Assembly: GCA_029243025.1 (NCBI GenBank)
Contig: JAQWSU010000005.1
Location: 31,286-95,285 of the forward strand
Direction: 5' to 3'
DNA: 64,000 nucleotides
From: Pirellulaceae bacterium
GTDB taxonomy: Bacteria; Planctomycetota; Planctomycetia; Pirellulales; Pirellulaceae
The position numbers and the translations under genes were made by a program. Below the pieces are notes generated by a model that worked only from the letters and a program-made list of their open reading frames with translations, searched no databases and was not told where the DNA came from. The stretch's first letter is position 1; each line of letters starts with the position of its first letter. Below, in pieces: positions 23,757 through 30,099 of the stretch.

Positions 23757-24995
23757 TTAACGTCGCTTCCGACGAATCGCACAAAGCGCGAGAGCACCAA
23801 GCAACAAAACGGCCGAACTCGGTTCGGGAACGACCTGAGCCGCGTTATACGGACCTTTTTCATAACCGCCATCGGAAAACGCGGTGACAAAGTCGGCCGA
23901 ATTGAAGCGTGAGTCACCGTTCCAATCGCCTTCGCTCCAAACCGCTGCCTCATCAACTTCGTACTTAGCGGCACCAAAAACTTGAACGAAGTCACCACTA
24001 TTGAATTGGCCGTCCAGGTCTGAATCGCCCATCCAAGTACCAAGCACGTCGTGCACGTAATTGACACGTTCCGCCGGATCGGTGAGCGAGCCGTCGTCGA
24101 GGCGAATCGTCGGATCAGGCGACACACCCAAGGCATAGTCAAGTGCACCTCTGAGAAGGGCCGTACCTGCATCGGTCAGGATTGTCGCTTCCCAACCAGG
24201 ACCTGTGCCGTCGGCACCACCGGTTGGATCGTCTTCAGGCGCAGGACCACGATTGGTGTTGCTCAAGAACATACTAATGCGCATTCCTGGGGCCTCTCGA
24301 CCATCACCCATCTCTTCGCCCGATTCGTAGACTGAGAGAACCGAAGCTTCAGGATGGCTTTCTTTGAACTCAGGCATGACAGCGAGGTTAGCACCCGTAC
24401 CTTCTTGAGGGCTACACCAGCTCATGCGTCCGCCACCTTCTTCGCCCAAATCCTGATCATCGTAGATCGTGTAGACACCGTTCTGCAATCCTGACAACTG
24501 AATGATCGGATGAGAATCATCGATGATTTCGATGTCAGTCCCAAAGTGCGTTCCGGCAATAATCTCCTCGCCGTCTTCCACATTGTCTCGAATCGTTCCC
24601 GGCGATCCGTGTCCTTCGCCCTCACGACCAAAATCGCCCCAACCGAGCGTGTCGCAGGCAAAATTCTCGTTATTGATCATCGGCGTTGTCGTTTCCTCAA
24701 TGTAACCAACGCGGCTTGAGCTAACTGATTCATTGATCCAAACGACATCCGCGTCGTCGGCTGCCTCAAGCGCCGCTTCCGGATCAGCAGCCGCGGAATC
24801 GTTGCTCCAGACGTCGAGCGAATGCCCGAGCCCCTCGAGGAAATCAATCTGAGCTTCGTCACCTTCGTCGACTGGCTCATCTGCTCGCTGAATGTAGAAA
24901 ATTTCCGCCGCCTTTGCGTCAGCGACGATACCAGTCGCCAAGAAGATCGTCGCCAATCCCATGGCCAAAAACTTCAACTCAACTAAAATTTTCAT
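23757..24995 (-). CDS. Exported protein with dockerin-like repeats and PEP-CTERM tail
   Basis: 412 residues. A signal peptide (LKFLAMGLATIFLATGIVAD) is followed by an uncharacterised domain (about 30-310) with a repeated pattern of Asp/Glu-rich turns (EIFYIQRADEPVDEGDEAQI) and DDSHPII-like segments. Then come paired EF-hand-like dockerin segments (GDSDLDGQFNSGDFVQVF; EGDWNGDSRFNSADFVTAF) and a PEP-CTERM tail (VPEPSSAVLLLGALALCAIR + KRR). The ATG has GGGGAT upstream. Its repeat block is closely similar to those of the LamG and pseudogene copies at 15.2 and 20 kb, so these genes are paralogs. Role unknown; secreted by inference. Confidence 0.85.
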   Translation of the reverse strand: MKILVELKFLAMGLATIFLATGIVADAKAAEIFYIQRADEPVDEGDEAQIDFLEGLGHSLDVWSNDSAAADPEAALEAADDADVVWINESVSSSRVGYIEETTTPMINNENFACDTLGWGDFGREGEGHGSPGTIRDNVEDGEEIIAGTHFGTDIEIIDDSHPIIQLSGLQNGVYTIYDDQDLGEEGGGRMSWCSPQEGTGANLAVMPEFKESHPEASVLSVYESGEEMGDGREAPGMRISMFLSNTNRGPAPEDDPTGGADGTGPGWEATILTDAGTALLRGALDYALGVSPDPTIRLDDGSLTDPAERVNYVHDVLGTWMGDSDLDGQFNSGDFVQVFGAAKYEVDEAAVWSEGDWNGDSRFNSADFVTAFSDGGYEKGPYNAAQVVPEPSSAVLLLGALALCAIRRKRR

Positions 24996-25380: not shown

Positions 25381-28098
25381 CTATTTCGATGAATTATCGC
25401 CAGCTGGATTATTTATTTGAGAACGCCGTTCGTGGATGGGGCTTCCCGCTTGATAACGTTTTAGTTGGGATCGACCTACCGCTTTGCGATTACTTGGCGA
25501 CAATTCGATAGCTCTGCTCTGCCAGCGGGTCGCTTTTTCAAAATCTCCCACTTCCGCGTAGGCAGCGGCAAGCGTATCAAGCACCAGCGGATTCTCGTTG
25601 TTCGTTAGGCGAGCGGCCCGCTCGGCGTACACAACCGCTTGCTGGCCATCACGTAGACGATCATCTTCGCAGGTGGCCAAAACCCAAGCTAGATTGTTGA
25701 GCGTCTGCAAATCGCTGGCGTTCAGCTGAAGGCTTTTGCGATATTGGCCAATCCCCTCGTCGAAACTCCCCAAGCCGATAAGCGCGCGACCGAATTCACG
25801 GTGAGCAGAGGCGTTATTCGGCATCAGCCGAACAGCATTTCCGAGATTCGCAACAGCCTGTTGGTCCCGCTGCAAGAGCAGTTGCGTGGTTCCCAGATCG
25901 TAATACGCTTGTGAGAAGTCCGGATTAATTTCCAGGGCGGCTTGAAAATGCTTGATTGCTTCTTCGAGTGCACCTTGTGCTTGCAGAGCCCGCCCCCAAT
26001 TTCGATGGGCTGCTGCTAATTGGGGATCAATTTCCAACGCAGCCTGATAATGCGTTATGGCTTCGTCGAAACGATCTTGAGCCTGTAAGACCGCACCCAA
26101 ATTATTGCGAGTCTCCGCGGAATTCGCATCGATTCGCAACGCAACTCCATACTCCTTGGCAGCTTCCCGGTAGCGACCTGTAATTTTCAGTACGTTGCCC
26201 AGATTGATGTGTGCTGCGGCAGAATCAGAACGTAATCTGACAACCAATTCAAAATGAGGCAAAGCCTCAACGTAACGTTTCCGCCGGACTAACAATTTTC
26301 CTATTTCACGACAAGCATCAACATTGTCCGGTGCAATTCGCAAAGCCTGTTCGAAATGTTTCTGTGCCAACTCAAAGCGATTCAAGGTTAGCAGGACCCT
26401 ACCAAGATCCTGTTGCGTTTGCGCAGAATTCGGTTCAATTCTAGCGGCCTCTTCGTAATGCGTAAGCGCCTCTTCGACGCGATTTAAATCATTCAAAAGA
26501 ATGGCACAATTGATATGCGCCTCGAAGTAATCAGCTTCAATTCTTATCGCTTGTTCGTAGTGCTCGAATGCTTCATCGGCTTGCTCCAATTCTTGGAGAG
26601 TATTCGCCAGCTTGAAGTGCACGTCGGCAAGCTCAGGACTCATCGCTAAAGCTATTTGGTACTCTGTCGCTGCTTCTTGGTAGCGTTTTGCTTCCTTGAG
26701 CGCATCGCCCAGATAGCGATGTGCCATCACCGAATCAGGCGTTACGACAACGGCATCGGAGAAATAGCTAATCGCTGCTTGAACTCGATCCGCATTGCGC
26801 ATGGCAAAACCGGCTTGAAAAAGCGTATGAGCATGAGAACGACGAGCAACATTTTCCAGCAGATCATCTTGGATTACCGTGCCATCGATCATAGCCGCAT
26901 TCTCCTTGCGTTCGACAAAAGTTGCCTTGGAACGATTGATGTCGATGAAAACCTGATCCAAGGGAAGCGCACCTTTGTAGATGGCGACCAAACGACCATC
27001 GCCATTTAAAAGAATTGTTGTGGGGATCGGTAGTGTCTGGCGGGAATGAATGACAAGATCGTGCAAAAGCTGAATGGTGTCGACAAGTTGTTTTGTCGCT
27101 CGGCCCCTAACGAAAGGCAAGTCCATATCCGTGGAAATTTGTTCATCAGCATTCGAAAGAATCGGCTTGCCTCCGCTTTTCTGGCCAATGCTCAAACGGT
27201 CGACGCTTAAGGCAATCACGTCCATTCCCACATCATCAAATTCTTGCTGGCGTTCTTTAAGTTCCTGCAGTTCCTCGATGCAAGGAAGACACCAGCTCGC
27301 CCAAAGATTGATCAAAATAGGACGTTTGCCGATCGGTAGCTCGCGATCCTGACCATCAAAGTCATGATAAGATATGCTTGGAACTCGTAAAGGGAACAGA
27401 AGAGGGACTCGCGCCGTTGCTGACCGAGCAGGCAGCGAGGATTTTCCCGGCGCAATCGCCAGACTTCGTTCGGGCGATTCCCAACTTTCGACTTGCCCCA
27501 CAGATTGTCTGATTCGGTAACGTTGATTTGAGCTAATTGACCCGAACTCGTCGCTAGAACCGTCGGGCCAAAGTACGCGAATCGATTTGATAGCGCCATG
27601 CTTACCAAGCCCAAAATGCAACCACTTACTAGACTGAGCTAGAAACGCGTCACCGGCACGCAGCGTCTTCGCGTGTATCGTGTTCGACTCACCGAGTGTG
27701 ATGATCTCCACGCGAGCGCCGATCGCGTCACGGTTGACGCTGGTCCCATTGCCAATCAACTGGAAGGCGACGTATTGATTCTGATGCTCGGTATCGTTTC
27801 TCATCAGTCGCAATCGCGGAGCGTTACGATTTGTGATCCAAACATCTAAGTCGCCGTCCAGATCCCAATCCAGACTCGCGACCGCGCGTCCGTCGTCCGG
27901 AAAATCGAGCCCGGATGCGGCGGAAATATCCGCAAAGCGTCCCTGAGCGTCGGGCTGAGACAAGGTGTTTAGAAAACAACAATTTTTCTCGCGTCCGCTA
28001 AATGACCTACCTTGTCGCATCATCGACGTCAGATCGACCGTGCTACGCGTTCTCTGATTGGAAATTCCGTCGCTTGCCTCGTTTCTAGATTGCGACAC
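25381..28098 (-). CDS. ASPIC/UnbV-thioredoxin-TPR part of candidate selenoprotein
   Basis: 905 codons in the same frame as the preceding ORF. Order (local residues): FG-GAP tail (54-92, RFADISAASGLDFPDDGRAV), ASPIC/UnbV region (about 125-180, ending SIRVLWPDGS), a TlpA-like thioredoxin domain with CxxC in NLWASWCLPCIEEL (Cys 270 and 273; 937 and 940 in the whole), then about twelve TPR units (430-870). The GTG at 28098 lies inside the SECIS-like hairpin, has no Shine-Dalgarno and is followed by no signal peptide although the domains are of exported types. It is therefore unlikely to be a true start. Confidence 0.85.
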   Translation of the reverse strand: MSQSRNEASDGISNQRTRSTVDLTSMMRQGRSFSGREKNCCFLNTLSQPDAQGRFADISAASGLDFPDDGRAVASLDWDLDGDLDVWITNRNAPRLRLMRNDTEHQNQYVAFQLIGNGTSVNRDAIGARVEIITLGESNTIHAKTLRAGDAFLAQSSKWLHFGLGKHGAIKSIRVLWPDGSSDEFGSISSNQRYRIRQSVGQVESWESPERSLAIAPGKSSLPARSATARVPLLFPLRVPSISYHDFDGQDRELPIGKRPILINLWASWCLPCIEELQELKERQQEFDDVGMDVIALSVDRLSIGQKSGGKPILSNADEQISTDMDLPFVRGRATKQLVDTIQLLHDLVIHSRQTLPIPTTILLNGDGRLVAIYKGALPLDQVFIDINRSKATFVERKENAAMIDGTVIQDDLLENVARRSHAHTLFQAGFAMRNADRVQAAISYFSDAVVVTPDSVMAHRYLGDALKEAKRYQEAATEYQIALAMSPELADVHFKLANTLQELEQADEAFEHYEQAIRIEADYFEAHINCAILLNDLNRVEEALTHYEEAARIEPNSAQTQQDLGRVLLTLNRFELAQKHFEQALRIAPDNVDACREIGKLLVRRKRYVEALPHFELVVRLRSDSAAAHINLGNVLKITGRYREAAKEYGVALRIDANSAETRNNLGAVLQAQDRFDEAITHYQAALEIDPQLAAAHRNWGRALQAQGALEEAIKHFQAALEINPDFSQAYYDLGTTQLLLQRDQQAVANLGNAVRLMPNNASAHREFGRALIGLGSFDEGIGQYRKSLQLNASDLQTLNNLAWVLATCEDDRLRDGQQAVVYAERAARLTNNENPLVLDTLAAAYAEVGDFEKATRWQSRAIELSPSNRKAVGRSQLKRYQAGSPIHERRSQINNPAGDNSSK

Positions 28099-28118
28099 GA
28101 CCTGCCGCCAAAAGAAAC
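28081..28118 (-). promoter_or_regulatory. Candidate bacterial SECIS element
   Basis: Directly after the TGA, on the minus strand: lower stem GTTTCT/AGAAAC (6 bp), a 3-bp UUG/CAA stem, one bulged G, a 5-bp stem CGGCA/TGTCG (one G-U) and apical loop GGTCG. The loop begins 18 bases after the TGA, within the 16-37 window known for bacterial SECIS, and GCAGGUC equals the apex of the E. coli fdhF element. The bulge 5' of the upper stem is in the place of the fdhF bulged U. A search with a SECIS program and SelB-binding tests would settle it. Confidence 0.75.
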
Positions 28119-28119
28119 T

Positions 28120-30099
28120 TCACAAATCGCTCGTATCGTCGGTTGTGATATAGCCATTGGCAACCACCAGGTCGTCACGACCGTCGTTATTGATGTCAAC
28201 AAACTGCGAACCCCATGCCCAGCGACCCAGCGTGACGCCTGCTTCGAGACTTACATCGGAAAACGTGCCGTCCCCCCGATTTCGCAACAGCGTGTTCCCC
28301 CGCGCAAATCGTTGAAGTCGCTGTTTAACATTCGACGGAGCATGCGGCTTAAAGTGGTCTTGATAGGCAATCCGATTGCCAGCCGCGGAATACATATTGC
28401 TCACATAGATATCCGGCCAGCCATCTTGATCGTAATCCGACCAACTCACCGACATTCCCGATGCGCTGTCTTCGACACCGGACATTGCTGCCACGTCGAC
28501 GAAATGTCTTTGGCCGCCAGCTTCTTGATCGTTTCGATAAAGATTGTTTCTTCCGTAGTCGTTCGCCACGTAAAGGTCTTGATCGCCATCGTTGTCAAAA
28601 TCTTCCCAAGATGCAGCAAGGCTCCAACGCCGATTATTTTCATTCAAACCGACCTCATTGGTTACGTCGCGAAAGCTCCAACCATTGTCGGGAGTGATCT
28701 CGTTACGAAAAAAATGATTTCTCGCACCATTGTTGGCATCGTGGTAGACAAAATTCTCGGCCTCAGCCGCAATCGACAGATTGACCGATTGTTCTAAGAA
28801 ACTGCTAGGCGCGTACGCACAAACGTATAAATCGAGGCGCCCATCCTGGTCAAAATCGGCGGCCGAAAGAGACATCAAATCGTCCACGGTTGGCAGCACA
28901 TCATGGATCGAAAACTTACCGTGTCCGTCTCCAATGGCGATGACGATGCCCCCCAAGACAGCAACAGCCAAATCTTGATCACCGTCGTTGTCGAAATCGA
29001 CGAGGAGTGCTGACCGAGAGTTTTCCAGCCAATCGACACCTGCAGCTTCGGAAATATCGAGTAGAGTTCCATCCATCTGTTGAAGAAACAGACGATTGGG
29101 AAGTCCTGCCTCCTGGCACAAATAAAAATCATCCAAGCCATTACCATCGACGTCACCAATTGCGATGCCAGGCGTCGACAGAATGAAATAATGATGATCA
29201 TCTTGGCCACGTTCCAGCCAGTGATTCCAGCCGAGTTTTAACTGCTGTTCATAGCTATCATTCCCGGCCAATGCCGAATCAGTACAATCCGAAAAGAGCT
29301 TACTTCGTTGTGCCCCGTGTGTGCTAACCTGCTCAGCATCTTCCACCGTGATCGAAAGCAGGCGGGGAGGCTGGTTATTCTTGCCCGGCTCCCATCGGGC
29401 CGACCATGTCGCGTTCTGCTGGATCGTTCGCTGTGGGTCGTGCCCCGAAAACGAAAAGTATTGTCGCGTTGTGATTTCCTCAACAGACGGATCCACTCGA
29501 ATAACTTTGAATTTACAATACGTTTCGTCCGTGTCTGCCAACAGTGCCTTTAAAGCCGATAAGGCCTTGATCATTCCTGCTAATCCTTGGAAGGACTGCG
29601 GAGCCGAGTCACCGCTGGCGACCGGTGAATCGGCGGCCATTCTTTCCACAATGAAGGTCTCATCGCGGTAGCACTCGGACAACCTCGGAAGCAAAGCTTC
29701 ACATCGAAAGTTCGGAGCCAGCAACGACTCTAAATCTTGCTTGTCAATCGACTTGGCACGGGCTAACAACTTGGCGATCTGATTGAGTTGCTTGTTCGCC
29801 CGAGCACTAAATGCTTCGCTGTCCCAGCCATCGACAGTAGGATTGTCGATCCCGCTCCATAATTCAGTGGAAGCCACAACCGGTTCACCTGAAGCTGAAG
29901 CGTCGGAAGTTGGGTTAGCTGCTTGAAGTGAAACCGTTTCATTTGAATCCACGCGGGAATTGTCACGGGCGTTGCAACTCATCAGTCCGGTCGTTAGAAA
30001 GGCGACGAGTATTATTCGACTAAGCAAGCGGAACCGAAGCGCATGGCAACCTTTTTGTCGGCGTGATTTCTTCAAAAGGTTTCGTTTCCGGCGAGCCAT
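28120..30099 (-). CDS. FG-GAP repeat lipoprotein, N-terminal part of candidate selenoprotein
   Basis: 659 residues before the TGA. A basic N-terminus and hydrophobic segment end in a lipobox-like LMSC (Cys42). Residues 90-300 are an uncharacterised domain. From about 310 to 655 run FG-GAP/VCBS-type repeats with DxDxDGxxD calcium loops (GDVDGNGLDDFYLC, DFDNDGDQDLAVAV, DINNDGRDDLVVAN). The end, TTDDTSDL, leads into the TGA. No Shine-Dalgarno is obvious at the ATG. Alone it would lack the ASPIC/UnbV region that normally completes this protein type (CRTAC1-like). I read it as the first part of the recoded gene. Confidence 0.85.
   Translation of the reverse strand: MARRKRNLLKKSRRQKGCHALRFRLLSRIILVAFLTTGLMSCNARDNSRVDSNETVSLQAANPTSDASASGEPVVASTELWSGIDNPTVDGWDSEAFSARANKQLNQIAKLLARAKSIDKQDLESLLAPNFRCEALLPRLSECYRDETFIVERMAADSPVASGDSAPQSFQGLAGMIKALSALKALLADTDETYCKFKVIRVDPSVEEITTRQYFSFSGHDPQRTIQQNATWSARWEPGKNNQPPRLLSITVEDAEQVSTHGAQRSKLFSDCTDSALAGNDSYEQQLKLGWNHWLERGQDDHHYFILSTPGIAIGDVDGNGLDDFYLCQEAGLPNRLFLQQMDGTLLDISEAAGVDWLENSRSALLVDFDNDGDQDLAVAVLGGIVIAIGDGHGKFSIHDVLPTVDDLMSLSAADFDQDGRLDLYVCAYAPSSFLEQSVNLSIAAEAENFVYHDANNGARNHFFRNEITPDNGWSFRDVTNEVGLNENNRRWSLAASWEDFDNDGDQDLYVANDYGRNNLYRNDQEAGGQRHFVDVAAMSGVEDSASGMSVSWSDYDQDGWPDIYVSNMYSAAGNRIAYQDHFKPHAPSNVKQRLQRFARGNTLLRNRGDGTFSDVSLEAGVTLGRWAWGSQFVDINNDGRDDLVVANGYITTDDTSDL

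Follow-up and report, generated by a model that had tools for sequence, protein, structure and literature searches.

A 2026 inventory counts 119 families or subfamilies of selenoproteins (PMC13188914), which share one decoding logic, namely a UGA codon, a selenocysteine insertion sequence (SECIS) hairpin after the UGA, and selA, selB, selD and tRNA-Sec. Here, we describe a gene in which the same logic appears to operate, encoded on the minus strand at 25381..30099 of a 64,000-nucleotide stretch of a Pirellulaceae bacterium genome (assembly GCA_029243025.1, contig JAQWSU010000005.1, positions 31,286 to 95,285; hereafter the window). An in-frame TGA at 28120-28122 in this gene is almost certainly decoded as selenocysteine (Sec), judging from the sequence comparisons below. 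Two described protein types are closest to its product. CRTAC1 (cartilage acidic protein 1) and the bacterial "CRTAC1 family" have FG-GAP and UnbV_ASPIC domains and a propeller fold in common with it. However, the stretch with Sec660 and Cys707 here was unaligned to CRTAC1 in a profile search, the relatives found without the stop codon (no-stop homologs) contain no Sec, and we know of no CRTAC1 with a fused thioredoxin or TPR part. TlpA/ResA proteins correspond in fold and CxxC motif to residues 908-1038, but here these make up a single domain within a chain of 1572 residues, and the Sec lies elsewhere in that chain. A TlpA-type selenoprotein is listed with the motif UGC in Table 1 of the inventory (PMC13188914); judging from this motif, its Sec would lie in the thioredoxin active site, unlike here.

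The in-frame TGA and its conservation

The minus-strand open reading frames (ORFs) at 28120-30099 (659 amino acids) and 25381-28098 (905 amino acids) share one frame, and the single TGA plus seven sense codons part the first from the GTG at 28096-28098. The first-pass annotation had claimed this arrangement, with Sec at residue 660 of about 1572. Indeed, translation with the TGA read as a residue gave a product of 1572 amino acids with the TGA as residue 660, ending at a TAG at 25381-25383. Past the TGA, the frame stayed open for 912 codons. From the sequence, the two ORFs are likely one gene, and one of 23 in the host genome with the same in-frame UGA.

A search of the host genome with a 219-residue query (150 of 179 candidates scored) gave 59 matches, the best 23 of which each contained exactly one TGA. 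In all 23 it was found at the equivalent place, in the motif D-[LM]-U-S-x-x-W-R. Of the remaining 36 matches, two extend across the site, each with Cys in that position (DHCTHFWC, 30% identity; DYCTTYWR, 28% identity). The nucleotide pattern TGAAGY-N6-TGGCGNC, which covers the TGA and the hairpin start, occurred 27 times in the host genome (23 paralogs and 4 others), compared to once for the reversed pattern. The four occurrences outside the family are at G000 C33:217685, C35:19651, C54:27931 and C55:100713.

The TGA was likewise retained in other genomes. The family was present in 7 of a set made of the host genome and 29 relatives, with 49 matches that each contained one TGA, and the TGA was at the site in 44 of 44 loci of the seven genomes (the 23 own copies and 21 of 21 from six relatives). 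Within a phylum sample of 392 genomes, which contains the host genome, 55 had the family; 83 of their 94 matches contained one TGA and 11 were no-stop, and a further 29 loci from this sample all had the TGA at the motif. Since at most seven candidates were scored per genome, copy numbers in the sample are low bounds. In named genomes, a relative was encoded by 519 of 569 candidate stretches (more exist), and the TGA was at the site in all 79 of the best loci that were retained, which come from four phyla. The query for these excluded the site, and their list is biased to close relatives and consists mostly of metagenome bins, whose titles may err. Most are titled Planctomycetota and Verrucomicrobiota (Roseibacillus, Akkermansiaceae), with a minority of two Acidobacteriota, one Thermodesulfobacteriota and one Candidatus Tharpella. 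Altogether, a scripted check of 123 loci placed the TGA at the site in every one (the 44 plus the 79, five of the latter duplicating loci of the former), so that the proposed alignment of homologs for Sec turned out in favor of the annotation.

Rates of nonsynonymous (dN) and synonymous (dS) substitution were calculated against L068, the locus nearest to the query among those of the named genomes. They were 0.115 and 1.11 before the TGA and 0.189 and 1.02 after it, giving a dN/dS of ~0.10 upstream and 0.19 downstream. These values indicate that protein constraint persists past the TGA.

The predicted SECIS hairpin and the selenocysteine machinery

The annotation had further placed a SECIS-like stem-loop after the TGA, and a hairpin sequence with the G-rich loop GGUCG is present there. 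This predicted 6-bp bacterial SECIS hairpin (28092..28108, minus strand) begins 11 bases past the TGA and consists of a 5' arm at 28108-28103, a loop at 28102-28098, which begins after 17 bases, and a 3' arm at 28097-28092; the GTG of the second ORF occupies the loop and the 3' arm, as had also been claimed. The E. coli fdhF element has a bulged U, for which the hairpin here shows no evident counterpart. Published limits for bacterial SECIS elements are a loop of 3-9 nt with a G in its first two places, a stem of 4-16 bp, a loop 16-37 nt after the UGA and an energy of no more than -7.5 kcal/mol (PMC13188914). The spacing of 17 nt, the 5-nt loop and the stem of 6 bp (109 loci) or 5 bp (14 loci) all lie within the geometric limits, and the 45 bases from the TGA fold within the energy limit for 117 of the 123 loci and for all 23 own genes. 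A G at loop place 2 and a U at place 3 were found in the 5-nt loops of all 123 loci.

Synonymous codon identity was then compared with expectation across the 44 loci. It was approximately as expected at codons -12 to -2, +2, +3, +12 and +13, and elevated at -1 (0.78 versus 0.20 expected), at +1 (0.59 versus 0.18) and from +5 to +9, with a peak at +8 (1.00 versus 0.29); a weaker rise was observed at +10 and +11. This profile argues for synonymous constraint on the hairpin region. Stem statistics were calculated from 118 loci (five duplicate named loci dropped; 112 distinct rows) and 500 shuffles. Of the cells in the stem, 98.2% were paired, and both the paired cells and the covariation score exceeded those of all 500 shuffles. 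One stem pair varies, being AU in 63 rows, GU in 39, CG in 6, GC in 3 and another combination in 1. All six pairs are possible in 109 of 123 Sec loci and in 0 of 11 no-stop homologs, and the same fractions (109/123 and 0/11) were obtained for the hairpin in the best fold. It was also in the best fold of 20 of the 23 own genes, compared to 196 of 4600 synonymous resamples of these genes. Rfam at gathering thresholds gave nothing but one tRNA within the window.

The genes for Sec insertion, which had been reported as lying outside the window and proposed as a check, were all detected in the host genome, an 8.35-Mb draft of 96% completeness, on contigs C2 and C60: selB (365 bits; cut-off 242), the adjoining selA (570 bits), selD (352 bits) and tRNA-Sec (64.7 bits; anticodon UCA by ARAGORN). 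A second tRNA-Sec candidate at C21:127693-127778 (49.2 bits) was typed as tRNA-Ser by ARAGORN and was rejected. The host selD contains an in-frame TGA of its own (L189, G000:C60:108592-109518; SCAG-U-AGK), and thus SelD is likely a selenoprotein too. The selB model exceeded its cut-off in two of 14 control genomes, E. coli and M. jannaschii (stricter run). The family tracks selB, which was detected in 51 of the 55 family-bearing genomes of the phylum sample compared to 236 of 392 overall (Fisher p 1e-8). Among the host genome and its 29 relatives, selB was found in 7 of 7 genomes with the family versus 11 of 23 without it (p 0.024).

Proposed redox partners of Sec660 and competing explanations

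The first ORF contains FG-GAP repeats, and the second contains UnbV_ASPIC, an AhpC-TSA/redoxin-type domain and many TPRs, giving the order propeller, Sec, UnbV, thioredoxin CxxC and TPR. According to Pfam, the structure model and structural matches, the product is predicted to combine a CRTAC1-type FG-GAP beta-propeller (residues 258-867; 27499..29328), which contains the Sec, with a TlpA/ResA thioredoxin domain of the AhpC-TSA type (residues 908-1038; 26986..27378) carrying C937-L-P-C940. Pfam also places the UnbV_ASPIC domain at residues 792-861 (27517..27726) and the TPR region at approximately residues 1092-1540 (25480..26826). A lipobox-like LMSC with Cys42 (29974..29976) closes a hydrophobic stretch, as read by eye. 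From these sequence features, the product is probably exported and may be a lipoprotein, as the first-pass annotation had assumed; several paralogs show, by eye, a hydrophobic anchor and no evident lipobox. In the model, a predicted helix begins with Sec660, and a helix start is a usual place for a redox selenol.

A second Cys accompanies the Sec. Cys707 (27979..27981), in an SGxExNC motif, is the proposed partner of Sec660. Of the 122 Sec loci that extend this far (one of the 123 is too short), 117 have it at precisely this position, five of them as judged by eye, and four of the five others have Cys one residue later. The no-stop proteins used for comparison were drawn from the best 120 of 3896 protein hits, of which 109 align across the site and 11 fall short of it. 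Nine of these 109 have Cys at the Sec place, and Cys707 was present in 7 of these nine compared to 14 of the other 100. The expectation of Sec or Cys at the site in homologs was thus borne out for the TGA-bearing loci and for nine no-stop proteins, and failed for 100. A quick tree under a simpler model, with its 201 rows reduced to 150 (about half of the named loci kept, no-stop proteins thinned at random), indicated at least nine changes between Sec and non-Sec. At ~265-290 residues past the Sec, 22 of the 23 own genes encode the thioredoxin CxxC (the remaining copy ends earlier), as do 72 of the 74 named loci that have at least 330 codons beyond the TGA (one judged by eye); a pattern matched it in 21 of the 109 no-stop proteins. 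In an alignment of 56 rows, all 22 Sec rows have both C937 and C940. Among the 8 Cys-site rows, C937 was present in 3 and C940 in 4, and among the 26 others, C937 was present in 10 and C940 in 21. Many no-stop homologs among P0072-P0120 have Val instead of Cys707 together with Ala, Ser or Asn in the position of the Sec, and a few of these are titled Sulfotelmatobacter or Terriglobia.

We propose that SelB carrying Sec-tRNA (UCA) would bind the hairpin and decode the UGA. The Sec660-bearing propeller module would then act as a selenol oxidoreductase outside the cytoplasm, in which Sec660 would form a selenenylsulfide with Cys707. The C937-x-x-C940 domain of the same chain would recharge this pair, and the TPR part may hold partners. 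The reaction can be guessed to be extracytoplasmic reduction of peroxides or disulfides. Confidence differs among the parts of this proposal. Sec insertion together with some redox role, its detail left open, is very probable, and a thiol/selenol redox role of the product is somewhat favored. The exact relay from Sec660 and Cys707 to the CxxC is tentative, and we would sooner doubt it than rely on it. Taken as a whole, the gene may represent an unseen selenoenzyme class, in which a Sec-containing CRTAC1 propeller, a thioredoxin reductant and a TPR dock form one self-recharging exported chain, with 23 copies in one genome and a spread over Planctomycetota, Verrucomicrobiota and other phyla. This is a serious possibility, although we lean slightly against it; such a class would have been overlooked because gene callers split the gene in two.

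Several competing explanations were weighed. In a two-gene operon, the UGA would be a true stop and the second ORF would start at the GTG seven codons on. Such an operon would suit the position of this GTG, 21 bases past the stop codon, and the way in which ORF callers and protein databases split the gene here; nine of the 120 protein hits are C-terminal halves of 869-887 amino acids annotated as separate proteins. However, the codons between the stop and the GTG are conserved as protein (S1, W4, R5 and V7 are invariant in the 44 loci), the GTG sits in the hairpin, and the second product would begin with part of a propeller and, by eye, without an N-terminal signal-like stretch. Moreover, orthologs split into two genes, which the annotation had named as evidence against a single gene, did not turn up; the 109 no-stop homologs cross the site as single proteins from single ORFs. 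Two genes are therefore very improbable. The 912 open codons would equally be expected if the UGA were read as another amino acid without selenium, through a reassigned code or near-cognate read-through. This explanation is extremely unlikely, given that TGA, which closes 11 of the 18 open stretches longer than 300 codons in the window (28120-28122 counted), thus functions as a stop in this host, that tRNA-Sec, selA, selB and selD are present and selB is tracked by the family, and that the hairpin lies within the bacterial SECIS limits. A sequencing error or a decaying pseudogene has a negligible chance; one copy, at C11:81341-81832, did lose its frame 188 codons past the TGA, but the TGA recurs in 23 of 23 copies and in independent assemblies, and constraint continues downstream.

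Among readings that accept Sec, the residue may be a metal or substrate ligand in the propeller and not a redox partner of Cys707. The blades of FG-GAP propellers are of calcium-binding types, and the E, D, H, N, C or S found at the site in homologs would suit a ligand position. Nevertheless, Ala is among the commonest substitutes there, Cys707 and the CxxC domain accompany the Sec, and its modeled place at a helix start is typical of redox selenols. We consider a ligand role unlikely, with a distinct minority chance.

Returning to Sec insertion with a redox role, a number of observations weigh against it. The residue was A, S, N, E, D, H, Q, G or R in the 100 of 109 no-stop homologs without Cys, and E (five), A (four), D (one) or S (one), never Cys, in the 11 phylum-sample matches without a stop; the site residue thus seems dispensable in much of the superfamily. 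In the hairpin, two-sided changes occur at just one of the six stem pairs, the pair-count and pair-type measures were matched by 450 and 134 of the 500 shuffles, respectively, 14 of the 123 Sec loci form five pairs at most, and five pairs are possible in 2 of the 11 no-stop homologs. Concerning Cys707, 18 of the 100 no-stop proteins with other residues have Cys one residue after its place, and a descent-controlled test of its association with Sec or Cys gave 10 independent pairs on all branches and only 2 on supported ones, so that shared descent can explain this link. The thioredoxin domain or C940, its second Cys, also persists in many no-stop homologs (counts above), and the CxxC was lost in the Sec loci L073 and L082 (the Tharpella and Thermodesulfobacteriota records). 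Finally, G253, G296, G309 and G377 have the TGA form and no selB over the cut-off; all four are less than 90% complete and gave sub-cut-off selB matches only.

Novelty, significance and genomic surroundings

The family was compared with described selenoproteins. By name, Table 1 of the inventory has no entry for FG-GAP, CRTAC1, UnbV or TPR, its "-" entries carrying no motif (PMC13188914). Residues 560-890 gave no NCBIfam hit above the model cut-off, the best score being 12.4 bits against a cut-off of 35. WAxxUGC_long matched the thioredoxin domain only, with 38.6 bits of 300. A word search for ASPIC and FG-GAP found neither in the main texts of PMC12013277, PMC13188914, PMC9312934 and PMC2398784, and Planctomycetes go unmentioned in the main texts of five selenoprotein surveys that were word-searched. 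The planctomycete strains P1 and P2 are described, in the main text of PMC4807772, as having full Sec genes and several predicted selenoproteins, with fdhA and fmdB named; ASPIC and FG-GAP are absent from that main text. CRTAC1-family genes beside hydrazine-synthase-like genes are described in PMC12758564, where the word selenocysteine is absent. A description of the family was not found in the accessible literature, preprints, most subscription papers, supplements and a groundwater study (ref. 66 of PMC13188914) being outside its coverage. Priority for this selenoprotein family is thus likely.

The family would add a large group, with a domain set unnamed in the inventory, to the 119 counted (PMC13188914). 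A single genome carries the 23 copies in addition to a Sec-type selD; the largest set known to a survey of 2016 comprised at least 39 selenoprotein genes, in a single bacterium (PMC5029168). If the gene does represent a selenoenzyme class of its own, marine planctomycetes would be among the richest bacterial users of selenocysteine. Because databases hold the halves as separate proteins, planctomycete and verrucomicrobial annotations would need correction. The family also offers a way to test the function of CRTAC1-type propellers, since the Sec marks a likely reactive spot.

The frame-broken copy at C11:81341-81832 (L208 / L039) is followed by a further match at C11:81196-81330, and this copy is therefore a pseudogene or an assembly error. 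Sec copies occur in tandem or divergent pairs a few kb apart at L193, L196, L197, L199 and L201, and non-Sec FG-GAP/UnbV genes adjoin Sec copies in L196 and L200. No partner common to the paralog neighborhoods emerged among 20 scanned of the 68 neighbor ORFs. LamG, dockerin, PEP-CTERM and two non-Sec FG-GAP/UnbV proteins were recurrent among these 20; sulfatase-like, peptidase M32, kinase-like, 3HCDH and GDSL/TPR proteins were single cases, and five ORFs had no family. In the window itself, the neighboring minus-strand gene at 23757-24995 encodes 412 amino acids, with a C-terminus that resembles, by eye, a PEP-CTERM sorting signal.

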